A DNA stretch of 64,000 nucleotides from Candidatus Latescibacterota bacterium (GTDB lineage: Bacteria; Latescibacterota; UBA2968; UBA8231): positions 124,001 through 188,000 of the forward strand of contig JAJEIO010000049.1 of the NCBI GenBank assembly GCA_022827835.1. The letters run 5' to 3'. The notes below the pieces were generated by a model. The model did not search any database. It was not told the origin of the DNA and saw nothing but the letters and a program-made list of their open reading frames with translations. A program made the position numbers and the translations under genes. Within the stretch, counting starts at the first letter, position 1; every line of letters starts with the position of its first letter. Positions 3,248-64,000 of this stretch are shown here, piece after piece.

Positions 3248-4561
3248 CTACAGATAACTATTAACGATATTCTCCAGCATTTCCTCGCGGCCGCTGCGCT
3301 TTTCTGGCTCGCCGTGCTGGTGGACGTATGCCTCTAGCTCGGCGAAGTTGGTCTCGCCGCGCATGATCTTCTCGCCGATGCCGCTGCGGTACGAGGCGTA
3401 GCGCGCATCCACAAAGGCGTCGAGTGCGCCGTCGTCGATGATGCGCTGGGCCAGCGTTAGCCCGCGGGCAAACGAGTCCATGCCGCCGATGTGGGCGTGG
3501 AAGAGATCCTCCAAGTCGCAGGAGCCGCGCCGCACCTTGGCGTCGAAGTTGATGCCGCCGGAAGCGATGCCGCCTTGCTTGAGGATCACCAACATGGCGT
3601 AGGTGGTGGCGTAGAGGTCGGTGGGGAATTGGTCGGTGTCCCAGCCGAGCAGGTAATCGCCGCGGTTGGCGTCAATGCTGCCCAGTTTGCCGTCGGCCGA
3701 GGCGAGCTGGAGGTCGTGTTCAAAGGTGTGGCCGGCTAGAGTGGCGTGGTTGGCTTCGATGTTGAGTTTGAACTCGTCCAACAGGTTGTATTTGCGGAGA
3801 AAGCTCAAGACGGTGGCGGCGTCGTAGTCGTACTGGTGCTTGGTAGGCTCTTTGGGCTTGGGCTCGACGAGCAGGGTGCCGGTAAAGCCGATCGCTTTTT
3901 TGTGTTCGACGGCCATGTGCAAGAAGCGCGCGAGTTGGTCTTGCTCGTGGGCCATGTTGGTGTTGAGCAAGCTGGAATATCCCTCGCGTCCACCCCAAAA
4001 CACGTAGTTAGCCCCCCCGAGCCGATGGGTGCATTCCATGGCTTTTTTGATCTGCGCCGCGGCCCAGGCGAAGACGTGGGCGTCGGGGTTGGTGGCGGCC
4101 CCGTGGGTAAAGCGCGCGTGCGAGAAACAGTTGGATGTGCCCCAGAGTAAGCGGACGCCCGTGTCGGCTTGCAATTGCTCGGCCAGCCCCACGATGTGGT
4201 CGAGGCGTTCGTTGCTTTCTTTGAGGGTCTCGCCTTCGGGTGCGATGTCGCGGTCGTGCCAGCAGTAGAACGGCGCGCCGAGCTTGGTGATGAACTCAAA
4301 GGCCGCGCGCAAGGTGTCTTCGGCGCGCTGCATGGGGTCGGTGGCGCGGTCCCAGGGCCGGTCGTACACCGGAGTCGGGCCGAAGGGATCGATACCCCCG
4401 CCCTTGAAGCTGTGCCAAAAGGCCACGGAGAAGCGCAGGTGCTCGGCCATGGTCTTGCCGCCGACTGTGGCTTCGGCGTCGTAGTACTTGAAGGCGAGGG
4501 GGTTTTTAGAATCCGGTCCTTCGTAGGCAATTTTTTCGATGCCCTTGAAAAATTCGCTCAT
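3248..4561 (-). CDS. xylA: xylose isomerase
   Basis: [60 protein letters not shown]. Confidence 0.96.
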
Positions 4562-6862: not shown

Positions 6863-8128
6863 TTAGACCTCTAACAGCAGCCGCGCTGGATCTTCCAGTA
6901 GCTCTTTTAGCCGCACCAAAAACGAGACCGACTGTTGACCGTCCACCAGCCGATGATCGTAGGACAGTGCCACGTACATCATCGGCCTAATCACCACTTG
7001 ACCTTCGACAGCTACGGGCCGCTCCTGGATCGCGTGCATTCCCAGAATTCCACTTTGTGGCGCGTTTAAAATTGGCGTGGAAAGCAGCGAGCCGAAGACC
7101 CCGCCGTTGGTGATGGTAAAGGTGCCGCCGCTTAGCTCGTCCATGGCCAGCTTGTTGTCGCGGGCACTCAGTGCGAGCCGCTTGATGTTGCTTTCGAGCT
7201 GGGCGATGGACATCTGATCGGCGCGGTGCAAGACGGGCACGACTAGACCGCGCTCCGTGCTCACCGCGATCCCCAAATTGACGAAGTCGTGATACACAAT
7301 GTGAGTGCCGTCGATCTGCGCGTTGATCGCCGGAAACTCGCCGAGCGCGAGGACGGCGGCTCGCGAAAAGAACGACATCAGCCCCAGCGATGAGCCGTGG
7401 ACTTGGGCAAAGCGCTCCTTGTACTTGGCTCTGAGCTGCATCACCGCACTCATGTCGATTTCGTTGAAGGTCGTCAGCATGGCCGCGTTGTGCTGCGCGG
7501 CGACCAAGTGCTCGGCAATGCGCTGGCGGAGCCGGCTCATTGGCTCGCGGCGGGTGAGGCCGGGACTGGCGGGCGCAGGCGACGATTGAGCGGGTTCGGG
7601 CGCAGGAGTGGATTCAGGCTCAGGCGGCGGAGCAGGTTTGGGTACAGGTGGTGGTTGAATGGGTTCGGGCGCGGGTTCGGGCGCGGATAGCGTCTCTATA
7701 TGGGCGAGTACGTCCTTTTTCGTCAGCCGTCCGTCCTTGCCCGTGCCCTCAATGGTGGCCGGGTCCAGCTCGTGTTCTTCGACTAAGCGGCGCACGGCGG
7801 GGCTTAGGGTGGGTTCAGGTTTGGACGCAGTGGGTTCGGGTTTGGACGCAGTGGGTTCGGGTTTGGACGCTGGAGCCGGAGCGGCAGCTTGTGCTGATTC
7901 ATCTATCTCCGCTACTACCGCTCCTATGGCTAGCGTGGTGTCGGTGGATTGTAGGTGTTTGAGCGCGCCACTGGCTGGGGACGGCAGCTCGACATTGGCC
8001 TTGTCGGTCTCTAACACGCAAAGCGGCTCGTCCCGCTCGACGCGCTCGCCGTCGCCCTTGAGCCATTCGAGGAGAATTACCTCGCTGACCGATTCGCCCA
8101 TGCTCGGTATTTCGACTTGTACTGACAT
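6863..8128 (-). CDS. sucB: 2-oxoglutarate dehydrogenase E2 (dihydrolipoyl succinyltransferase)
   Basis: Lipoyl domain ([19 protein letters not shown]), PSBD, catalytic domain ending [17 protein letters not shown]. Confidence 0.95.
7811..7873. repeat. Three 21-bp tandem repeats encoding (SKPEPTA)n in the SucB linker
   Basis: gggttcaggtttggacgcagt / gggttcgggtttggacgcagt / gggttcgggtttggacgctgg. Confidence 0.9.
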
Positions 8129-8138
8129 GCAAATGCTC

Positions 8139-10937
8139 CTAACCAGATTGCCGCCGCTGATGCAGCACCACTTCGCGGCTGCGGCCTAGTGCTTGTTCGA
8201 CGATTTCTCGTTGCTCGGTTTCGTGGAGGTGCCCGGAGCCGGTGGCCGGACTGGCCGCTTCGTCGCGGCCGACGTAGTTCAGCGCGCAGTGTGCAGGCAG
8301 CAGTTCGTCCAAGAGGGGTTGGACGAAGCTCCAAGCGCCCATGTTCTGCGACTCTTCTTGCACCCAGTAGAACTGCTTAGCTGCGGGATAGCGATCAAAC
8401 GCAGCTTGGAGTTCGGCGGTCGGAAACGGATAGAGTTCCTCGACGCGCAGCAGCGCTACTTCGTCGCTGCCGTTTTGCTCGCCGCGGGCAGCTATCAAGT
8501 CGTAGTAGATCTTGCCGGTGCATAACACCACCCGGCTGACGGCGGCTGGATCGGCGACGTCGGCGTCGTCGATGACCCGCTGGAACGTCCCCTCGGAAAA
8601 CTCTGCTAACTCTGAGACGCATTGCTTGTGCCGCAGGAGGCTCTTGGGGGTCATCAGCACTAGCGGCTTGCGGAAGTTGCGGTGCATCTGCCGCCGCAAG
8701 ATGTGAAAGAGTTGCGCGGGCGTGGTCGGATAGGCCACCTGCATGTTGTTTTTGGCGCACGCTTGCAAGAAGCGCTCTAGCCGTGCGCTGGAGTGCTCTG
8801 GCCCCATGCCCTCGTACCCGTGCGGCAACAGCAGCACCAAGCCGCTCATTCGCTGCCACTTGGCTTCGCCGCTGGTGAGGAATTGATCGATGACCATCTG
8901 CGCGCCGTTGACGAAATCGCCGAACTGGGCCTCCCACAAGACCAAGCGTCTCGGGTCTGCCGAGCTGATCCCGTACTCAAAGCCGAGTACTGCTAGCTCC
9001 GACAGCATGGTGTTGATCACGACGAAGTCGGCTTGATCGCGTTCCAAGCACTGCAAGGGGACGTGCTCTGCACCTGTTTCCGTGTCGTGCCAGACGGCGT
9101 GGCGGTGGGCAAAGGTGCCGCGCTGGGTATCTTGGCCAGTCAGGCGCACTGCCACGCCCTCCCGCAGTAGTGAGCCGAAGGCCATCACCTCGCTGCAGCC
9201 CCAGTCAATGGGTGCTTGGCCAGCGGCCATGGCGCGGCGCGCTTCGACCATCCGCTGAATTGTGCGGTGCAGCGAGAAGCCCTCGGGGACTTGGGTCGCC
9301 CGCTCGACGATCCGCTGCAGGATTTTGGCATCGACGGCCGTTTGGGCGCTCCAGTCATCGGGTGCCCAAGTCAGGCCCTGCCAGACGCCCCCGAAGGACG
9401 AAATTTGGGGCTGGACTTGCAGGCGGCGGGCGATTTGCTGGGCTTCTTCGAGCCGCGTGCGGATCCGCGCGCGAATATCGTCGGCTTCCTCTTGGGAGAT
9501 TTTATTTTGGGCAATGAGCTGGAAGGAATAAAGATGGAGGATCGTCGGATGCTCGGCGATCTTCTTGTACATCAGCGGCTGGGTCAGGGTCGGGTCGTCG
9601 GCCTCGTTGTGGCCGTGGCGGCGATAACACCACAAATCGATAAACACATCCACTTTGAAACGGTGCCTGAATTCCATCGCCACCCGCGCTGCTTGTACTA
9701 CGGCTTCGGGGTCGTCGGCGTTGACGTGAAAGACCGGTGCCTGAATCTCCTTGGCTATGTCGGTCGGATAGGGGGTAAAGCGCGTTTCGTCGGCTTGGGC
9801 GGTGTAGCCGAGCTGGTTGTTGATGATGATGTGGACGGAGCCGCCGGTGCGGTAGCCGGGCAGTTCGGAGAGATTGAGAGTCTCAGAGACGATGCCTTGG
9901 CCGGTAAAGGCGGCCTCACCGTGGATGAGTACTGGGACCACCCGCTCCCCTTTGTCGTCGTGCAAGTAGGCTTGCTTGGCATAGACGATGCCCTCGATGA
10001 CCGGATCAACCAGCTCTAGGTGACTAGGATTAAAACTGAGCGAGAGATGGACTTTGCGGCCCTCCTCGGTGACGTGGTCATGGGAATAGCCCTTGTGGTA
10101 TTTGACGTCGCCCTCGTCGTCGTCGCGGTCGGTGCGGTCGGCACCCTCGAACTCGGCGAGGATTTCCTCGTAGGGCTTGTGCAGAAGGTGTGCCAGTACG
10201 TTGAGCCGGCCGCGATGGGCCATGCCGATGACCATCTCTTCAACGCCTAACTTGGAGCCGGTGCTGACCAGTTCGTCCAAGAGCGGCACCATGGACTCGG
10301 CCCCTTCGAGCGAGAAGCGCTTTTGCCCGACGTAGCGCGTGTGCAAAAACTGCTCAAACTCCTCGGCGGCGATCAGGCGTGCCAGCACCCGCCGCGTCTC
10401 GTCTTCAGACAAGTTGGGATTGTTGAGGCAAGGCTCGACCCGCTCTTGCAGCCAGTCGCGTTGCTCCTTGTCCGGGATGTCCATGTATTCGACGCCAATG
10501 GAGCGGCAATACGTGGTTTTTATTTTGCTCAACAGCCCCTTTAGCGTCCCGTCCGTGCGCCCGAGGAAGCCGCCGTTGCCCACGGTCTTGTCAAGGTCTT
10601 CTTCGGCGAGGCCAAATTCTATCAGATCCAACAGCGGCAGGCTTCGGCGGTTGTACCCCAGTGGGTCGAGCCGAGCGACGAAGTGGCCCATTTGCCGATA
10701 GGTCTGCACGAGGGCTTGGACGCCTTCGAGGACCAAAAGGCCCTCAGTGGCTTCTTCTATGGACTGCTGCTGCGAGGCTTCTACTGGTGCGCTGGCGGTC
10801 GCGGAGCGCTCGAAGCCAAATTCAAAGCCGCGGAAGAAGTGTTGCCACTCTTCTGGGATCGCGCTGGGATCGCGCTGATATTGCTCGTAGAGAGCCTCGA
10901 TGTACTCGGCGTTTTCACTGTGCGTAGCAAATGACAT
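8139..10937 (-). CDS. sucA: 2-oxoglutarate dehydrogenase E1
   Basis: [49 protein letters not shown] at 10937 ([24 protein letters not shown]) preferred to 10955. Confidence 0.95.
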
Positions 10938-29319: not shown

Positions 29320-32235
29320 TTGATCAGCGACGCCGAGAGCATCGCCGAACACATCCGCTTTCTCAAACGCCGCATCTTGGGCAATGAGGTCGTCCATCAC
29401 CAGACCTTGCCCGAGCGCCCGGCGCGCCTAGTCCGCGACTTGGCTGGCCTGCCTCCGGCCATGGCCCGCATCCTCGAAATTGCTCGCATTCCCGCGCTCT
29501 ATACGCACCAAGCCGAGGGCATCCAAAAAGTGCTGGAGGGCCAGCACTTGGCCATTGCCACGCCCACGGCCTCGGGCAAGACCTTGGTGTACAACGCGCC
29601 CGTGCTGGCCACGCTGCTCGACGACCCAGAGGCACACGCGCTCTATATCTTCCCGCTCAAGGCACTGGAGCAAGATCAGTTCGACGAGCTAAGCGGCCTG
29701 ATGCAGGGCTTAGGCGGCACGCTAAAAGCGGCCATTTACGACGGCGACACCACGAGCCATCGCCGTCGGCAAATTCGCACCAAGCCACCGCAGGTGCTGT
29801 TCACCACGCCGGACATGCTGCACTCGGGCATCCTCGCCTTCCACGAGGCTTGGGCCGACTTTTTCGCCCGCCTGCGCTACGTGGTCATTGACGAGCTGCA
29901 CGCGTACAGTGGCGTGTTTGGCACCCACGTGCTGCACCTTTTTCGCCGCTTGAACCGCATCTGTGCGCACTACGGGTCCGATCCGGTGTACATCACTAGC
30001 TCGGCGACGATGGGCAATCCCCGCGAGCTGGCGGGGGAACTGCTCAACCGCTCCTTTTACGCGATTGAAGATCACGGCGCTCCGGCCGCGGCGCGCCACT
30101 TTGTGTTCGTCAACCCGAGCGAAAGTCCCAACACCCTTGCGGCCCACCTGCTGCGCGCCAGCGTGCTCCAAGACTATCGCACGATTGTCTTCACTCGCGC
30201 CCGCATCACCACCGAACTGGTGTACCGCTGGGCAACCCAGAGCCGCCCGGACTTGCGAGAGCGGATTTCTTCGTATCGCGCGGGCTATTTGCCTACGGAG
30301 CGCCGCCAGATCGAACAGGCGCTCAACGGTGGCGAGCTCATGGGCGTGGTGGCCACGTCGGCCTTGGAACTGGGCATTGACATCGGCGGCTTGGACATCT
30401 GCGTGTTGGTCGGCTATCCGGGTTCGATAATCAATACCTGGCAGCGCGCTGGCCGCGTGGGTCGCGCCGGCCGCGAGTCGCTCATTCTCCTCATCGCCTC
30501 TCCCGACGCGCTCGACCAGTATTTTATGCGGCACCCAGGGGAGTTTTTTGCGCGCGATTTAGAGGACGCGGTGGTGGATCCGACGAATCAGTACATCCTC
30601 AAAAACCACCTCACATGCGCGGCGCGCGAATTGCCTCTCGTCGCTAGCGAGCCGGAGTACGCGCTGCCCAACTATCAGGAGGCGCTTGGTGCGCTAACCG
30701 AGGAGGGCACGCTGCTGCAGAATGCTGAGGGCGACGCTTGGTTTGCCGCGCGCAAGCAGCCGCACCGCTTGGTCAACATGCGCACTATCGGCGAGTCGTA
30801 TCGCATCGTCGATCGCGGCGACAACCATATTGGCACGGTCAGCGGCGGGCAGGTGTACGGCGAGTGCTACAAAGGTGCGATTTACTTGCATCGCGGCCGC
30901 CAGTACGAGATCGGCGACCGCAACCCCGAGCGGGGCCAGATTTACGCCGAGGAAGTGGATGTGGCGTACTTCACCCGCGCCCGCACGGAAAAGGACACCG
31001 AGATCTTAGAGGAGTTGCGCTCGCGGCCGTTGCAGGGCTTTATGGCGCGGTTGGGCCGGCTCAAGGTCAGCTCGCAGGTGGTGGGCTACGAAAAGATCCG
31101 CGTTGGCGACCAAGTCGTGCTCAGCAAACACGAGTTGGAGTCGCCGGTGGAGCACTTTGAGACGATTGGCTTTTGGATCGAGCTCGACGCCCACTTCAAG
31201 GCCGATCTCAGCCGCCACCAGCACCACTACATGGGTTCGATCCACGCCATTGAACACGCCATGAAGTCGCTCTTCCCGCTGCTAGCCCTGTGCGACCGCA
31301 CGGACGTCGGCGGGATTTGCTATCCCCAGCATCCTCAGCTCGGCAAGGGCGCGATTTTCGTGTACGACTATCACCCCGGCGGCATTGGTCTGGCGGAAAA
31401 GGGCTTTGCCCAACTCGACCGCCTCTTGGACATGACGCTTTCCATGGTCGAGACCTGCGATTGTCTGCTCGGCTGTCCGTCTTGCATTCATTTCCCCACG
31501 TGCGGCGCGGGCAACGTCCCCCTCGACAAGGAAGGCGCGATTCACTTGCTCGGTGCGCTCACGGGCCGTCGGGCCATCGAGCACACTGCGGCCACAGCCG
31601 AGAGCACAGAGGACGCGCCGATTTTCGCTGAGTGGGAAGAAGAGAAAGGGGAAGAGGACATGCCACCCGAACAAGGCCCACACATCGTCGTGTTCGACCT
31701 TGAAACGCAGCGCTCGGCCGCGGAAGTCGGCGGCTGGAATAAAGCGCACATGATGGGCATGTCGGTCGGCGTGGTGTGGGACAGCCGTGCGCAGGATTGT
31801 ACGACGTACTTTGAGGAAGACATCGACCGGCTCTTAGAGCACTTACAGGCGGCCGATTTGGTCGTGGGCTTCAACATCATCGGCTTTGACTATTCGGTTT
31901 TGCGCGGGTACAGCCCATTTGACTTCCGCACGCTCAACACGCTCGACATGCTGCGCGAGATCCACCAGCGGCTGCGCTACCGGGTGAGCCTCGACTCGCT
32001 GGGCAAGGCCACGCTCGACGCAGCCAAGAGCGCCGACGGGCTGGACGCGTTGCGGTGGTTTAAGGAGGGGCGGCTGGACTTGATTGCCGAGTACTGCCAA
32101 AAGGACGTGGAACTGACTCGCGACTTGTTCTACTTCGGGCTGCGCGAAAACTACTTGCTCTTCGACCGCCGCAACGAAGGGCGGATGCGCATCCCGCTCG
32201 ATTGGAAGCTAGAAGAGTTGGTCGTCCGCGAGTGA
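29320..32235 (+). CDS. MrfA/YprA-like DEAD-box helicase fused to a C-terminal RNase H-like (YprB/MrfB-like) exonuclease domain
   Basis: TTG start; TPTASGKT, VIDELHAY, SSATMGNP, Zn-Cys cluster CDCLLGCPSCIHFPTCGAGNVPLDK; C-terminus IVVFDLETQRS...VVGFNIIGFDYSVL...YCQKDVELT. Confidence 0.88.
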   Translation: MISDAESIAEHIRFLKRRILGNEVVHHQTLPERPARLVRDLAGLPPAMARILEIARIPALYTHQAEGIQKVLEGQHLAIATPTASGKTLVYNAPVLATLLDDPEAHALYIFPLKALEQDQFDELSGLMQGLGGTLKAAIYDGDTTSHRRRQIRTKPPQVLFTTPDMLHSGILAFHEAWADFFARLRYVVIDELHAYSGVFGTHVLHLFRRLNRICAHYGSDPVYITSSATMGNPRELAGELLNRSFYAIEDHGAPAAARHFVFVNPSESPNTLAAHLLRASVLQDYRTIVFTRARITTELVYRWATQSRPDLRERISSYRAGYLPTERRQIEQALNGGELMGVVATSALELGIDIGGLDICVLVGYPGSIINTWQRAGRVGRAGRESLILLIASPDALDQYFMRHPGEFFARDLEDAVVDPTNQYILKNHLTCAARELPLVASEPEYALPNYQEALGALTEEGTLLQNAEGDAWFAARKQPHRLVNMRTIGESYRIVDRGDNHIGTVSGGQVYGECYKGAIYLHRGRQYEIGDRNPERGQIYAEEVDVAYFTRARTEKDTEILEELRSRPLQGFMARLGRLKVSSQVVGYEKIRVGDQVVLSKHELESPVEHFETIGFWIELDAHFKADLSRHQHHYMGSIHAIEHAMKSLFPLLALCDRTDVGGICYPQHPQLGKGAIFVYDYHPGGIGLAEKGFAQLDRLLDMTLSMVETCDCLLGCPSCIHFPTCGAGNVPLDKEGAIHLLGALTGRRAIEHTAATAESTEDAPIFAEWEEEKGEEDMPPEQGPHIVVFDLETQRSAAEVGGWNKAHMMGMSVGVVWDSRAQDCTTYFEEDIDRLLEHLQAADLVVGFNIIGFDYSVLRGYSPFDFRTLNTLDMLREIHQRLRYRVSLDSLGKATLDAAKSADGLDALRWFKEGRLDLIAEYCQKDVELTRDLFYFGLRENYLLFDRRNEGRMRIPLDWKLEELVVRE

Positions 32236-32244
32236 GTACAGCCC

Positions 32245-32787
32245 TTATCTACCCTCTATGACCCCACAGCCGACGCGGGCACCAGCCGCCCCGGTGGGTT
32301 GTGAGAAATCATCCGGGAGCGCGTGAACGATGACTGCGAGCCCGATGATGCTGTTGGCACCATCCAATTCGAGGTGGGTGTCGAGGCGGTTGTAAGTGGC
32401 TTGCCCAGAGGCGTCGGCGGTGATGTTGCCAAGGTCGCCGACGTGCCGTTCAGCGGCATCTGGTGCGCCGTGGGCTTTGCCTTCGGGATTGAAGTGACCG
32501 CCCGCTGACGTGCCATCGGCCGCGCTGCAATCGCCCTTTTCGTGGATGTGAAATCCGTGGTCGCCTTCTGTAAGCCCGGTCAGGTTGGCTATAACTCGCA
32601 CCCCGTCGGCTTCCTGCGTGAACTCAACAGTCCCTTCGGCGTTGTTGTTCTCGGTGGGCTGGATGGTGGTGCTAGCTTGCGTGGCCTCAGACGCGGTTGG
32701 CTCGTCTTCGGAGCATCCCAAGCAACTCGCCGCCAATGCGAATGCCAAGCCGATGATGGATTTGTCAATGAATCGGATCACGATCAA
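32245..32787 (-). CDS. sodC: Cu/Zn superoxide dismutase-like lipoprotein
   Basis: GFHIHEKGDCSAADGTSAGGHFNPEGKAHGAPDAAERHVGDLGNI; lipobox-like cysteine near the N-terminus. Confidence 0.92.
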   Translation of the reverse strand: MIVIRFIDKSIIGLAFALAASCLGCSEDEPTASEATQASTTIQPTENNNAEGTVEFTQEADGVRVIANLTGLTEGDHGFHIHEKGDCSAADGTSAGGHFNPEGKAHGAPDAAERHVGDLGNITADASGQATYNRLDTHLELDGANSIIGLAVIVHALPDDFSQPTGAAGARVGCGVIEGR

Positions 32788-32866
32788 CCTCCTTTATGTG
32801 GATTGTTCAATTTATAGCAAGCAAGTTCTACGGCGCAATACCTAGGAGCTTAATACGCGACAGCAG

Positions 32867-32971
32867 ATGCGACGCGATGTCGGCTCGCCGCTGGCGAATG
32901 TCCTTGATTGGAGAGACTTGGGTTGTTTAGCTTACGAAGATGCCTGTCAGCTAAAAGAATCCATTAGCTAG
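32867..32971 (+). pseudogene. LipB-like N-terminal remnant (34 aa)
   Basis: MRRDVGSPLANVLDWRDLGCLAYEDACQLKESIS* resembles LipB N-termini (xxLGxxxYxEAxxLQ) and stops exactly where the direct repeat begins. Confidence 0.35.
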
Positions 32972-32992
32972 GTGTGGGCACGGACAGGTCCA
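32972..32992 (+). repeat. 21-bp direct repeat, left copy
   Basis: GTGTGGGCACGGACAGGTCCA, identical to 36076-36096. Confidence 0.95.
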
Positions 32993-33038
32993 GTCATCGC
33001 AGGCGAAGACGCTAATGCTACTATTCCACAATCTGCCA

Positions 33039-34301
33039 ATGAGAAGTTTGGTTTCTCACTTGATACCCCCCCTTGTGATGATTGCAGGGTTGCTGGCGAC
33101 CTTTGGCATGGCCTGTGGGGGCGGGCAGGATGCCCCCGAGGCAAATGACGGCGGAAGGGAAATGAATGCGCCGCACCCGGCAACAGCGCAGGAAGAAGGC
33201 CACGAGGACCCCGGGTTTTCCGACGACTACGTCCTTTTTGGTCAATCCGCCGCGTTCACCGGGCCGGCCCAAGAATTGGGCAAGGCGATGCGCCTCGGAA
33301 TTGAGGCGGCATTCCACGAGGCCAATCAGGCAGGAGGCGTCCATGGCCGCGAACTGAAGCTCAGGGCGTTGGATGACGGCTATGAAACCGACTTTGCCGC
33401 TTCCAACACGGAACGGTTGATTGAGAGTGAAAGGGTATTCGCGCTGATCGGAGCGGTGGGCACACCCACGTCCCGCGCTGCATCACCGCTGGCCCAAGCT
33501 GCCGGGGTCCCCTTCCTCGCTCCGTTCACGGGGGCCGAGTTCTTGCGCGACCGGAAGTTGGACAATGTGCTCAACGTCCGAGCATCGTACTACCAAGAAA
33601 CCGAGGAGATGGTGGCGCGGCTCACCGAGGATTTGGGGATCACCCGCGTTGCCGTCCTCTATCAGGATGATTCCTTCGGCTTGAACGGGCTGGAGGGCAC
33701 GCGATTGGCACTGGAGCGCCGGGGCCTAAAGCCGGTAGCGGCCTCGCACTATCCACGCAATACCCGCGCTGTGAAGGGAGCCGTGCTAAAAATTACCGAG
33801 GCCAAGCCGGAAGCGGTGATCATGATTGGCTCCTACATGCCGGTGGTCAAGACCATAGAGTTGGTGCGGCGGGAGCTGGACCCGGTATTCATGACGGTCT
33901 CCTTCGTGGGGAGCAACGCTTTGGCGAACGAGTTGGGGCCCGACGGGGCCGGTGTGTACGTTACGCAAGTAGTTCCTCTCCCCGATGACGAAAACATCCC
34001 CGTGGTGGCTCGATACCACAGCGCCCTCTCCGAGTACGATCCCCAAGCGGAACCCGGATTCGTTTCGTTGGAAGGTTATCTGGCCGGACGCTTGGCCGTC
34101 GCCGGTCTCAAAGCCTGCGGCCCCAACCTGAGTCGAGAGTGCCTGCTCCACGCGGTGCGAGATGCCGGCACCATAGAAATTGACGGCATGCAGCTCAAAT
34201 ACGGACCGGACGATAACCAGGGATCCGACGCCGTGTTCTTGACCGTGATTGGTACGGACGGCAAGTACCACGGGGTCGAAAAACTTAGAAGCCCTTACTA
34301 A
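33039..34301 (+). CDS. Peripla_BP_6-type periplasmic binding lipoprotein, no transporter genes adjacent
   Basis: Lipobox LATFGMAC; VLFGQSAAFTGPAQELGKAMRLGIEAAFHEANQAGGVHGRELKL; paralogue of 48319-49512. Confidence 0.9.
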   Translation: MRSLVSHLIPPLVMIAGLLATFGMACGGGQDAPEANDGGREMNAPHPATAQEEGHEDPGFSDDYVLFGQSAAFTGPAQELGKAMRLGIEAAFHEANQAGGVHGRELKLRALDDGYETDFAASNTERLIESERVFALIGAVGTPTSRAASPLAQAAGVPFLAPFTGAEFLRDRKLDNVLNVRASYYQETEEMVARLTEDLGITRVAVLYQDDSFGLNGLEGTRLALERRGLKPVAASHYPRNTRAVKGAVLKITEAKPEAVIMIGSYMPVVKTIELVRRELDPVFMTVSFVGSNALANELGPDGAGVYVTQVVPLPDDENIPVVARYHSALSEYDPQAEPGFVSLEGYLAGRLAVAGLKACGPNLSRECLLHAVRDAGTIEIDGMQLKYGPDDNQGSDAVFLTVIGTDGKYHGVEKLRSPY

Positions 34302-34337
34302 CCCCCCCAAACGGCACCTACGGAGAATCTCAAAACC

Positions 34338-36122
34338 ATGGAAGGCTTCTCGCTCCAAGCGATAGTGGATCTGTTTAGATTCGGTGAGCACACGCATGAA
34401 CTACACCAATCGCTGTTGACGCTCGGGATGCTCATCATCGTCGCCAAGTTGGCCGAGGGCGTTTTTCGCCGGCTGCGGTTGAACTCCATCATCGCCTATG
34501 CGGCGACAGGTATGTTGCTTGGGCCGGTCATGGAACTGACCGGCGTCTGGTGGATTGAGTCTTCGCTGCACCTCGAGTTGGTTTTGGCGCTGGGTGTGTT
34601 CATTTTCTTCTTCCTCATCGGCTTGGACGAAGTAGATATTTCCAGTTTCATGTCGTCCCTCAAAGGCCATTACTTCCTCGCGGCCGTACTGTCGGTGATC
34701 GTGTCCCTAAGCATTTCGATGCTGGTCACCACCGATTTAGTTTTCGATTTCGGACTGAAACTGAATTTCACCGAGTCGCTGGCGTTGGCCGGCGTGCTGT
34801 CGATGACCAGTCTGGGCATCGTGGCCAAAGTGCTGACGGACGGCGGACACCTGAAACAGCCGGTTGGACTGCAAATTTTCACGGTGGTGATCATCGCCGA
34901 GTTGATTGCCCTGCTGGTGATCGGCTTCAGCATCGGCGAACACGCCCACCAAGTTTCGCCTATCGGCATACTGATTTTGCTGGGCAAAGTGGCCGGTTTT
35001 TCGGTGGTGACTTGGGTGTTGTCGTCGCGGGTGCTGCCGCCGTTGGTGGCGCTGTTGCAGCGGGTGATCCAGGTGCCGCAACTCTCCTTGGGTTTGCTGC
35101 TTGGCATGCTCTTCCTGATAGTGTACGGCGCGGAAGCAGTGGGACTCCACGGCTCTCTGGGTGCTTTACTGTTCGGGGCGTCGCTGTCGAGCCTTCCCTA
35201 CCAAGTGCAGCGGGAGATCATCCCAGGGATTCGCAGCGTGGCCGAGGGGTTTTTCGTGCCCCTGTTCTTTGCTTCCGCCGGATTGAGCTTCAGCTTTACC
35301 TTCGCAACCTTGCCGCTGGGGGCCATGGCGGGGTTGGCGCTGATCCCATTGCTCGGCAACTTCACCGGCGCTTTCATCGGCGCTTACGTGTCCCGCCTCG
35401 CCGTTCCCTACGCCGTGGCCACCGGGCTGATGGGTAAGGGAGTGGCTGAAATCGCGCTGCTGCTGGTTATGTGGAATTCTGGAATCATTGACGAGGTGGT
35501 TTTCTCATTCTTGGTGCTGGTCATGTTCTGCTACATCTTGTTCATGCCGTCGGTGATCAACTTCGCGGTGAGCCGGGCCAGCCGCAGGACCGACCTGCCA
35601 GCGCAACTTGACGACATTCCATTGGGAATAGTCCGCTTCGCGCTGGAAGACATCAAGATTGATGACATTCTGGACCGCTCGCGTCGTCATCCTGCGCCTT
35701 CGGTCACAGTGCGCGATTTCACGGAGCAGTGGATCGCTCCGCACCAGCCCCACTACGTCGTGGCAGATAGGGAAGCGCTGGTCGGGATCGTGTCCTTGGA
35801 GATGCTCCGCTACCTGCCTAAGGACGCTTGGGGCAAGACCCAGCTCGACGCTGTGGTCCGCCGCGAAACTCCATTGGCGTATCCTGATGAGCAAGTCGAA
35901 GATGTGCTGCACCGTATGTCAGAGAATTCTCTTTCCGTCATGCCCGTCGTGGAAAGGGATTCGGAAAAGTTTTTGGGCGCGGTCACCAACAGCGACATCA
36001 TCCAACTCATGACCATGGAGACTATGGGCGAGAGCAGACCGCCGCACCGGCCGGCCAAGCCCTCGACGCGGTCTCGTGTGGGCACGGACAGGTCCATCGA
36101 ACACAAAAAAGGAAAAATATGA
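34338..36122 (+). CDS. CPA2 (KefB-like) cation:proton antiporter with C-terminal CBS domains
   Basis: Polytopic core (FFFLIGLDEVDIS, GLMGKGVAEIALLLV); CBS-like C-terminus; last residues encoded by the direct repeat. Confidence 0.9.
   Translation: MEGFSLQAIVDLFRFGEHTHELHQSLLTLGMLIIVAKLAEGVFRRLRLNSIIAYAATGMLLGPVMELTGVWWIESSLHLELVLALGVFIFFFLIGLDEVDISSFMSSLKGHYFLAAVLSVIVSLSISMLVTTDLVFDFGLKLNFTESLALAGVLSMTSLGIVAKVLTDGGHLKQPVGLQIFTVVIIAELIALLVIGFSIGEHAHQVSPIGILILLGKVAGFSVVTWVLSSRVLPPLVALLQRVIQVPQLSLGLLLGMLFLIVYGAEAVGLHGSLGALLFGASLSSLPYQVQREIIPGIRSVAEGFFVPLFFASAGLSFSFTFATLPLGAMAGLALIPLLGNFTGAFIGAYVSRLAVPYAVATGLMGKGVAEIALLLVMWNSGIIDEVVFSFLVLVMFCYILFMPSVINFAVSRASRRTDLPAQLDDIPLGIVRFALEDIKIDDILDRSRRHPAPSVTVRDFTEQWIAPHQPHYVVADREALVGIVSLEMLRYLPKDAWGKTQLDAVVRRETPLAYPDEQVEDVLHRMSENSLSVMPVVERDSEKFLGAVTNSDIIQLMTMETMGESRPPHRPAKPSTRSRVGTDRSIEHKKGKI
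36076..36096 (+). repeat. 21-bp direct repeat, right copy
   Basis: GTGTGGGCACGGACAGGTCCA, identical to 32972-32992. Confidence 0.95.
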
Positions 36123-37312
36123 AAATCACGGATCTCAAATGCGCGGTCATCGGCAACAACCCGGTCGTGCGCATCAATACCGACGAGGGCATTTACGGCC
36201 TCGGAGAAGTCGAGGCGAGCAAGTCCTACCTCAAGCCTCACGTGCTATTTTACAAAGACCGCATCCTCGGCCAGGACCCGACCGATGTCGAGCGGGTGAT
36301 GCTCAATATCCGGCGCTTGGGCAGCTTCAAGCCTTGGGGCAGTGCGGTCAGCGCGATTGAGATGGCGTTGTGGGATATTGCCGGCAAGGCCGTGGGCGCG
36401 CCGGTGTACAAGCTGCTCGGCGGCAAGATCCGCGACCGCGTGCGGGTGTACAACGGCGCGGTGCGCTTCCCCATGGAGGGAGAGCAGTCGCCCGAGAACT
36501 ACGCTAAAAACATGCAGCAGATGAAGGACGCGCCGCAGAAGTTCAGCATCATCAAACAGGGCCTCGCCTTCCACGGCGGGCGGATCACTGAGTCGCCCAA
36601 ACATTTCTACGGCACCCACCAAGCCGGCCCATTCCACGCCAATCGCGGCCCTTTGAGCGAACGCGGCCTCAACTACATCGTCGATTGCATCCGCGCGATG
36701 AAGGAAGTGTGCGGCGACGAGGTTGGCTTGGCGCTGGATTTGGGACCGGGTTTTCTGGTGCCGGATGCGCGCCGTCTCGCCCAAGCGGTCGAAGACCTCA
36801 ACGTGGCTTGGCTGGAGGACATGCTGACCGGCGATTACGTGCCCTACGTGTCGGCGGATCACTACCGCGAGGTCACGCAGAGCACCTCGACGCCGATCCA
36901 CACGGGTGAGCAGATCTACTTGCGGCACAATTTTCAAGACCTGATTGAGAAGCGCGCCGTGGATGTCATCGGCCCGGATCCCTGCGACATCGGCGGCATC
37001 GCCGAACTCAAATGGGTGGCTGAATACGCCGATATGCACGGCATCCTCATGGCTCCCCACGGCGTGCTCGACGGTCTGTTGGGTTTGGCGGCTTTGGTGC
37101 AGGTCGCAGCGACGCTGCCGCAAAACTACATTGCGTTTGAATATCCGACTGGCCAGCCCGAGTGGTGGTACGACATCGTCACGGGCTTGCCCGACCCGAT
37201 TGTGGTCGATAGTCACATCGCCGTTTGGGACGCGCCCGGGATGGGCGTCGATTTAATTGCCGAAGAAGCGCGGCGCTATTTGCGCGAGGAAGATGCCGAT
37301 TTCTTCGACTAG
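36119..37312 (+). CDS. mandelate racemase/enolase-superfamily dehydratase
   Basis: EMALWDIAGKAVGAPVYKLLGGKIRDRVRVY, WLEDMLTGDYVPYV, HTGEQIYLR, MAPHGVLDG. Confidence 0.92.
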   Translation: MKITDLKCAVIGNNPVVRINTDEGIYGLGEVEASKSYLKPHVLFYKDRILGQDPTDVERVMLNIRRLGSFKPWGSAVSAIEMALWDIAGKAVGAPVYKLLGGKIRDRVRVYNGAVRFPMEGEQSPENYAKNMQQMKDAPQKFSIIKQGLAFHGGRITESPKHFYGTHQAGPFHANRGPLSERGLNYIVDCIRAMKEVCGDEVGLALDLGPGFLVPDARRLAQAVEDLNVAWLEDMLTGDYVPYVSADHYREVTQSTSTPIHTGEQIYLRHNFQDLIEKRAVDVIGPDPCDIGGIAELKWVAEYADMHGILMAPHGVLDGLLGLAALVQVAATLPQNYIAFEYPTGQPEWWYDIVTGLPDPIVVDSHIAVWDAPGMGVDLIAEEARRYLREEDADFFD

Positions 37313-48322: not shown

Positions 48323-49512
48323 GGCTTCGTCGCGCCCTTCAAGGAGCGGATGGGGCGATATTGGCCGTCGCTGTCGAGCACGGTGAGGAAGACCGCGTCC
48401 GAACCCTGATTATCGCTATCCCCATAGCGGAGCTCGAACCCCTCTAGGTCGATGACATCGGCGCGGCGCAAGTTGCCTAATAGGCAGGCGCGGCTGACTG
48501 CCCGGCCGCAGCCAGTGAGGGCGGCGATGGCCAAGCGGCCGGCTAGGTAGCCCTCGAACGAGACAAAGCTAGGCTCTGCTCTTGGGGCGTGGGCTGTGAG
48601 GGCACGGCGGTACGAGCCGACGATGGCTGGCTCGGTGGCCGTTGGGAAGGGCACGACCTGCGAGACTAAAACTCCAGTGCCAGTGGGGCCGAGTTCCCGC
48701 GCTAGTGCTTTACTGCCCACAAATGAGATGGTGGCAAAGATCGGGGTAAAATTTGTCTCATGCGCCCAAGCGATTAGGCTTGCGACCGGCTGGTAGGTCC
48801 CGACCAAAATCACGGCTTGGGGCTGGCCGCTGCGCAGGTCGAGCAGAGCGGTTTTTACCGCCTCGGTGTTGCGCGGATACACGCCGACCGCTACGAGCGA
48901 TAGCTCGCGGCGCACTAGGGCGCCGCGCACCCCGCGAAATCCCTCCCGACCGAAGGAGTCGTCTTGGTACATTATGGCAATGCGTTCAATGCCCAAATCG
49001 TCGGTCAGTCGGGCGACGATTTCCTCGGTTTCCTGATAGTAGGAGGCGCGCATGTTGACCACGCCGCGCCACTTGGGGTCGCGGAGAAAGCTACTGCCCG
49101 TGAAGGGTGCGATGTAGGGGACGCCAGCGTCCTCGGCAATGGGAACGGCTGCGCGCGAGGTTGGGGTGCCGACGGCACCGATCAGCGCGAAAACCCGCTC
49201 GCCTTCGATTAGCTGGCGAGTGTTGTCGATGGCGGCTTCCGGCTCGTACCCATCGTCGAGCGACACCAATTCGAGTCGTCGCCCGTGGACCCCGCCCTGC
49301 TCATTCACCTCGCGGAAGGCCGCCTGCATCCCGAGCCGCATGTTCCGGCCCAACTCCTGGGCTGGTCCGCTAAAGGCGGCGGATTGGCCGAAGAGGATAC
49401 TCCGGTCAGAGACGCCGGGCTGCTTCGACTTGAGCTCAGCCGAAAGTTCCTCGCCAAGCACAGTACTCGCCACTAGCAGCGCGGCCGCGCATCGAGCAAG
49501 CGCGTTGCTCAA
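48319..49512 (-). CDS. Peripla_BP_6-type periplasmic binding protein, probable sensory partner of the kinase
   Basis: ILFGQSAAFSGPAQELGRNMRLGMQAAFREVNEQGGVHGRRLELVSLDDGYEPE; 4-nt overlaps with genes on both sides; no permease/ATPase nearby. Confidence 0.92.
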   Translation of the reverse strand: MSNALARCAAALLVASTVLGEELSAELKSKQPGVSDRSILFGQSAAFSGPAQELGRNMRLGMQAAFREVNEQGGVHGRRLELVSLDDGYEPEAAIDNTRQLIEGERVFALIGAVGTPTSRAAVPIAEDAGVPYIAPFTGSSFLRDPKWRGVVNMRASYYQETEEIVARLTDDLGIERIAIMYQDDSFGREGFRGVRGALVRRELSLVAVGVYPRNTEAVKTALLDLRSGQPQAVILVGTYQPVASLIAWAHETNFTPIFATISFVGSKALARELGPTGTGVLVSQVVPFPTATEPAIVGSYRRALTAHAPRAEPSFVSFEGYLAGRLAIAALTGCGRAVSRACLLGNLRRADVIDLEGFELRYGDSDNQGSDAVFLTVLDSDGQYRPIRSLKGATKP

Positions 49513-62781: not shown

Positions 62782-62913
62782 ATGAGATACTTGCAGCGAT
62801 TTATTTTCTTCGTGATCGTAATGATCTTAATGGCTTTGGGGCGGCCTTCTGCGCTGCACGGGCAGGGTGAAGACGTGAACACGCCCGCTGGAACCGCGAT
62901 GTCAGCCGGCTAG
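62782..62913 (+). CDS. 43-aa signal-peptide ORF, truncated paralogue of the 63672 gene
   Basis: MRYLQRFIFFVIVMILMALGRPSALHGQGEDVNTPAGTAMSAG*, near-identical leader to 63672. Confidence 0.55.
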   Translation: MRYLQRFIFFVIVMILMALGRPSALHGQGEDVNTPAGTAMSAG

Positions 62914-63671: not shown

Positions 63672-64000
63672 ATGAGATACCTAAAGCGATTTATTTTCCT
63701 CGTGTGCATAATGATCTTGATGGATTTGGGTCGGCCTTCCTCTCTTTACGGGCAGAGTGTAAAAGACACGCCGTTGGGTGACGAAATCTCGCCCCTCCTT
63801 AGAAGCGAAAGTACTAGCTTCAGCACCAGTGCTTCCAGTGACGACGATGACGACGAGGACGACGACGAGGACGACGACGAGGACGATGAGGACGATGAGG
63901 ACGATGATGATGAGGACGAGGGGGATGAGGGTGACGAGGGCGATGAGGACGACGAGGGCGATGAAGGCGATGAAGGCGACGAAGGGGATGAGGGTGACGA
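63672..64000 (+). CDS. secreted Asp/Glu/Gly-repeat protein, truncated by window end
   Basis: MRYLKRFIFLVCIMILMDLGRPSSLYGQSVKDTPLGDEISPLLRSES... then from 63840 only D/E/G codons: DDDDDEDDDE...GDEGDEGDE; no stop before 64000. Confidence 0.75.
   Translation, partial: MRYLKRFIFLVCIMILMDLGRPSSLYGQSVKDTPLGDEISPLLRSESTSFSTSASSDDDDDEDDDEDDDEDDEDDEDDDDEDEGDEGDEGDEDDEGDEGDEGDEGDEGD

Follow-up and report, generated by a model that had tools for sequence, protein, structure and literature searches.

The perfect 21-bp direct repeats that surround a binding-protein gene (BP) and an antiporter gene (AP) in this Candidatus Latescibacterota genome are most likely the junction scar of a duplicated neighbouring segment, linked only indirectly to the acquisition of the two genes. 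Comparison of the sequences supports the horizontal transfer of BP and AP as a pair, and there is about an even chance that the repeats are what remains, after trimming, of a larger duplicated segment with the leader and start of the adjacent MR gene, generated by illegitimate recombination after the transfer of the pair. The window referred to throughout is the whole 64,000-nt stretch of DNA analyzed, which originates from genome G000 (5.84 Mb in 64 contigs), and the features that surround the repeats are collected in Table 1. The ATG at position 33039 is likely the true start of BP. A BP paralogue (~60% identical) is located 14 kb away in the window (48337-49428, - strand) and is present in most members of the genus.

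Table 1. Features surrounding the two copies of the 21-mer, with positions counted from the first base of the window.
Feature	Position	Strand	Evidence or remark
MrfA/Hrq1-like DEAD-box helicase, left neighbour	29320..32235	+	Pfam DEAD, MZB, WHD_HRQ1
Cu/Zn superoxide dismutase (SOD)	32245..32787	-	Sod_Cu E 6e-47
Region X: native BP upstream region, also divergent SOD upstream region	32788..32934	.	
37-bp unmatched sequence	32935..32971	.	Found in G000 and G007 only
Left 21-mer copy	32972..32992	+	
Remainder of native BP upstream sequence	32993..33038	+	G009 and G044 homology resumes exactly at 32993
BP, lipoprotein-type periplasmic amino-acid/amide binding protein	33015..34301	+	Peripla_BP_6 E 3e-53; PDB 4kv7 E 2e-67
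AP, CPA2-type cation/proton antiporter with C-terminal CBS region	34338..36122	+	Na_H_Exchanger E 3e-35; CBS E 8e-9; PDB 4bwz
Right 21-mer copy	36076..36096	+	Replaces the native AP stop codon
MR leader	36086..36118	+	Begins with the 11 bases that form the 3' half of the 21-mer
MR, enolase-superfamily sugar-acid dehydratase, right neighbour	36119..37312	+	MR_MLE_C E 1e-40

Both copies of the 21-mer (GTGTGGGCACGGACAGGTCCA) are exact and in direct orientation, as the original prediction described, and are separated by 3104 bp from start to start with BP and AP as the sole genes between them. The same prediction held that the repeats precisely enclose the pair, which is inexact, as the right copy falls inside the AP reading frame, which continues 26 bp beyond it to a stop codon that overlaps the MR start (ATGA). 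The suggestion of a dispersed genomic repeat is contradicted by a count in G000, where the 21-mer occurs only at these two sites with up to 3 mismatches allowed; dinucleotide shuffles of the window produced 0 matches at the same tolerance. An exact 20-mer in a single Gammaproteobacteria record was discounted because chance alone should give about half a match in the 257 Gb searched, and a 24-bp inverted near-match at 3895-3918 (15 bp exact, within a xylose-isomerase-like coding region) is probably also due to chance. The noted lack of a transposase or integrase was borne out in a Pfam scan of nine genes surrounding the repeats, and no tRNA was found in the 64-kb window. Terminal inverted repeats were absent by eye from the inner ends (GTCATCGCAGGCG... 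and ...CTCGACGCGGTCTC) and from the repeat listing of the window, and a sigma-70 promoter scan of the region returned no excess relative to shuffles. Elsewhere in the window, a 21-bp unit occurs three times in tandem (7809-7871, GTGGGTTCAGGTTTGGACGCA), and two gene starts 890 bp apart are 82% identical (62782-62869 and 63672-63759), with a GAC/GAG-rich acidic repeat tract (63840-63971) after the second.

At the right junction, the antiporter gene of four relatives (G003, G004, G007 and G009) ends in GGTCTCG(A/G)CAGAAT(C/T)ATTAA, for a protein that terminates in RQNH. In G000, GGTCTC is instead followed by the 21-mer and then the MR leader; thus the native stop codon is gone and 14 residues (VGTDRSIEHKKGKI), encoded by the 21-mer and the leader, have been gained. 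The replacement of the AP stop by the 21-mer is specific to G000, and the earlier observation that the right copy encodes the final residues of the antiporter needs the refinement that the MR leader contributes to them. The leader 3' of the 21-mer is identical at 34 of 36 bases, MR ATG included, to the right leader of G007 (alignment score 56, compared to a maximum of 34 for shuffles). The right end of G007 has no 21-mer, and the MR leaders of G003, G004 and G009 are shorter.

The left junction is embedded in sequence that belongs to BP. Region X matches its counterpart upstream of BP in G044, a genome from a different family of the same class, at 78% identity (E 1e-29; match 32782-32934), and the G044 homology resumes immediately after the left 21-mer, with 28 bp between its two matching blocks. 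The native BP upstream region extends ~200 bp to the left of the 21-mer and is conserved in the family of G044, and since it is present on both sides of the left copy, this copy is not the edge of a cassette. As the two blocks are continuous in that family apart from these 28 bp, only ~28 native bases were replaced at the left junction, where the 37-bp piece and the 21-mer now stand. The 37-bp piece is absent from G044 and G009. It is 100% identical in G000 and G007 (JAJEFJ010000104.1, a Candidatus Latescibacterota bin), region X is 97.8% identical between the two genomes, and the left junction (37 bp and 20-mer) matches at 57 of 57 bases.

Beyond this point the two genomes diverge in structure. 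While G000 returns to the native BP upstream sequence directly after the 21-mer, the left site of G007 matches the 21-mer at 20 of 21 bases and continues uninterrupted through the MR leader and MR codons 1-17, a 95-bp copy of leader and codons in the order SOD, X, 37 bp, GTGTGGGCACGGACAGGTCC, MR leader and 17 MR codons in frame to a truncated BP (MKITDLKCAVIGNNPVV-PPLVMIAGLLLATMACGGG). The fusion of the 17 codons to the truncated BP signal region (L055, ~10150-10345) is a candidate for a new lipoprotein signal that borrows its start site. The BP+AP pair of G007 has a perfect 55-bp direct repeat of its own on either side, consisting of the MR-start copy and the genuine MR start 3086 bp apart, so that in the broad sense the predicted repeat-mediated rearrangement may still apply, with a different and longer repeat around the same genes. 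Because the 21-mer, leader and MR start are contiguous at the left of G007 and the same leader follows the right 21-mer of G000, the three constitute one ancestral block. A possible relationship of the 58-bp left block to the MR leaders of G002 or G010 was rejected, as the similarity is no better than that of shuffles. G007 also has two MITE-like inserts (L055, 11162-11255 and 5948-6040), one between helicase and SOD and the other between MR and ADH, that are absent from both sites in G000 and the other relatives. They measure ~93-110 bp, are 78% identical to each other and have inverted ends (TAGGGGCAACCCTTGTGG ... TTGCCCCTAC).

Among the 11 genomes of the genus (G000 included), BP and AP occur together in five (G000, G003, G004, G007 and G009). 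The same helicase and MR genes flank them in every case, with the two ends of the locus on separate contigs in G003. The helicase occupies the corresponding place in these five genomes and in G002 and G010. The empty locus of G002 has only ~100 bp between helicase and MR and does not contain the 21-mer, nor does any other empty site in the genus. SOD lies to the left of BP in G000 and G007 only; in G008 the end of a SOD gene follows the helicase before the contig ends. In G004, a SOD gene occurs at an unrelated locus (L059, 9788-10353) between cyclase-like and PhyH-like genes, and SOD also seems to move. In G010, a 583-residue gene named by eye as xanthine/uracil-permease-like (L061, 9650-11401) fills the helicase-MR interval, which suggests that the locus swaps transport genes. 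The gene content of the locus thus varies, with SOD, BP+AP and the permease each present in some members only. In trees of the flanking genes, G000 and G007 group as sisters (support 94 and 90). Within MR, a 21-bp in-frame deletion at window position 36474, relative to G003, G004, G007 and G009, is common to G002 and G010; a recombination breakpoint that makes the MR of G000 resemble theirs was considered and rejected, the signal amounting to this indel and a few sites.

Outside the genus, BP and AP are adjacent in three genomes of family f3 (88-90% DNA identity, different neighbours) and in G022, from the family of G000, where identity is lower, the contig ends and the neighbours are other genes; two f4 relatives have AP homologues (~50%) and no BP within the flanks examined. 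The amino-acid identity of AP is 91% to family f3, compared to 81% to another genus of the family to which G000 belongs. At fourfold sites, AP agreement between f3 and the g1 species is 81-89% when G007 is left out and 77-82% for G007, while G000 and G022 agree at 65%. Among the g1 species G000, G003, G004 and G009, AP agreement is 91-96%, against only 80-84% for the helicase and 75-87% for MR, ADH and MR2. Copies of the pair from different families are nearly as similar as ordinary genes of sister species, and the third-position G+C of BP and AP (0.72-0.75) is lower than the ~0.80 of neighbouring genes. The first third of MR (5' end) is more alike among BP+AP carriers than the remainder of the gene. 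Within the genus, the BP+AP fourfold sites of G000 agree more closely with G009 and G004 (93-96%) than with the sister G007 (87-92%), and rooted site patterns are split, with 6 sites grouping G000 and G007, 5 (clustered) grouping G000 and G004 and 2 grouping G000 and G009. That BP+AP is an acquired pair is upheld by its patchy distribution, its cross-family similarity and the empty locus of G002, but the 21-mers are not the ends of a cassette. A 21-mer confined to these two sites, with both genes in the same flanks in all relatives, had been named as the pattern that would speak against insertion; the 21-mer is indeed confined to them and all carriers in the genus share the flanks, but two members have the flanks and lack the genes.

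The sister relationship of G000 and G007, combined with the identical 37 bp and 20-mer, points to one shared duplicating event in their ancestor, and the order of events and the manner of repair can be reconstructed from the junctions as follows. The transferred pair would have settled between helicase and MR in one branch of the genus. In the ancestor of G000 and G007, a segment with the MR leader and MR start may then have been copied by homology-poor recombination into the BP upstream region, displacing ~28 bp and leaving BP+AP between two copies of the leader and start. Each lineage would later have trimmed both ends through small deletions: in G007 the left end presumably kept the leader and 17 MR codons, now the start of BP, and the right end lost its 5' part, while in G000 the left end would have kept the first 21 bp alone and the right end lost the AP stop, such that AP reads on into the leader. 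Several observations are difficult to accommodate in the duplication and trimming. A full-length duplicate on both sides is found in no genome and four separate trimmings are needed, no source was found for the 37-bp piece, and the left and right leaders of G007 differ at ~7 of 36 bases though the adjoining 55 bp are identical. Further, by raw similarity the BP+AP of G000 is closer to that of G009 and G004 than to that of G007, as if it had arrived separately.

This last observation is accounted for by an insertion, a possible though doubtful alternative, in which an ancestor free of BP+AP with the order SOD, X, 37 bp, 21-mer, leader and MR received a fragment similar to that of G009 or G004 at a staggered break, duplicating 21 bp, and a second insertion duplicated ~83 bp independently in G007. 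Such events would constitute illegitimate or one-sided homology-facilitated integration of foreign DNA, which PMC8504540 documents for transformed DNA. In favour of it, the 21-mer, leader and MR start are uninterrupted at the left of G007, the G000 and G007 junctions differ, and G000 combines flanks of the G007 type (X and the leader) with a pair of the G009/G004 type. However, the predicted empty haplotype is found in no genome, the rooted sites weakly favour a grouping of the G000 copies with those of G007, and BP+AP would have to be lost with X retained before a fragment returned with its left end only 28 bp from the end of X, which would be a coincidence. A homologous unequal exchange between helicase-SOD-MR and helicase-BP-AP-MR haplotypes that left MR-start pieces at both ends is unlikely. 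It draws on the separate presence and absence of SOD and BP+AP at the locus and on the greater similarity of the 5' third of MR among carriers, but simple double crossovers swap haplotypes and do not set them in series, X belongs to BP and not to SOD alone, and at least one illegitimate joint would still be required.

It is very unlikely that BP+AP is a transposase-free cassette inserted repeatedly at the start of the MR operon by an undescribed pathway that duplicates its target (21 bp, or ~83 bp in G007). An assembly artefact, with strain haplotypes joined at a 21-base overlap during metagenome assembly, is highly unlikely; a k-mer length of 21 is common in assembly and the estimated contamination of G000 is 8%, but the independent bin G007 has the same left junction at every base and a related duplication, and both joints are deep within a 273-kb contig. 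Perfect direct repeats around two genes with no transposase inside would also be compatible with a site-specific element, or an integron-like or att-flanked cassette, for which the 21-mer is the recognition or core site of a recombinase supplied in trans. This is extremely unlikely given that the genome contains just two copies, that the left one is within the native BP upstream region, that the window has no tRNA and that the same genes lack such repeats in G003, G004, G009 and family f3. The single-copy empty site sought for site-specific insertion at the 21-mer was found in no relative, the empty locus of G002 being without it, and carriers have other junctions (G003, G004, G007, G009, G044, G046 and G047).

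Compared to known systems, an inserted block with short perfect direct repeats on either side recalls a transposon with its target site duplication. BP+AP differs in having no transposase, no terminal inverted repeats and no fixed ends among relatives, and the sister G007 has a different repeat; 21 bp is also unusually long for a target site duplication of a transposon. Direct repeats flank acquired genes in att-flanked integrative elements and genomic islands as well, but here an integrase and an att site, whether a tRNA or another, are absent, relatives do not conserve the repeat and none has a single-copy empty site. With no recombinase inside, no single-copy empty site and no conserved boundary or inverted repeats, the definitions of both the att element and the transposon therefore fail. 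The preferred duplication and trimming resembles local templated or duplicative insertion at a repaired double-strand break, in that the nearby MR leader and start would have been copied and few target bases lost, though the mechanism here is drawn from two genomes and no template was found for 37 inserted bases. For the acquisition, the nearest named process is homology-facilitated illegitimate recombination, known from Acinetobacter and Streptococcus pneumoniae and described in PMC8504540, which cites de Vries and Wackernagel 2002 and Prudhomme 2002. In that process, as here, one or both joints of the foreign genes show little or no homology, an integrase plays no part and junctions are idiosyncratic and differ by lineage. 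The BP+AP locus has homology-poor junctions and an MR 5' tract common to carriers. The defining homologous anchor and a donor were not found for BP+AP, and short direct duplications at both ends, present here, are not among the defining features of the process.

Homology-poor recombination underlies the duplication and insertion accounts alike and neither needs a dedicated enzyme. This is a fairly ordinary kind of genome reshuffling. When acquired genes are flanked by short, perfect direct repeats, these can be what is left of a trimmed local duplication and need not mark a mobile element, a warning for repeat-based cassette calling in uncultured bacteria. The comparisons document that a binding-protein/antiporter pair moved recently between bacterial families and that, in the sister G007, a secreted protein captured the start codon of its neighbour in frame. 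The remaining repeats (21 bp in G000 and 55 bp in G007) predict that BP+AP may be lost again by repeat-mediated deletion.
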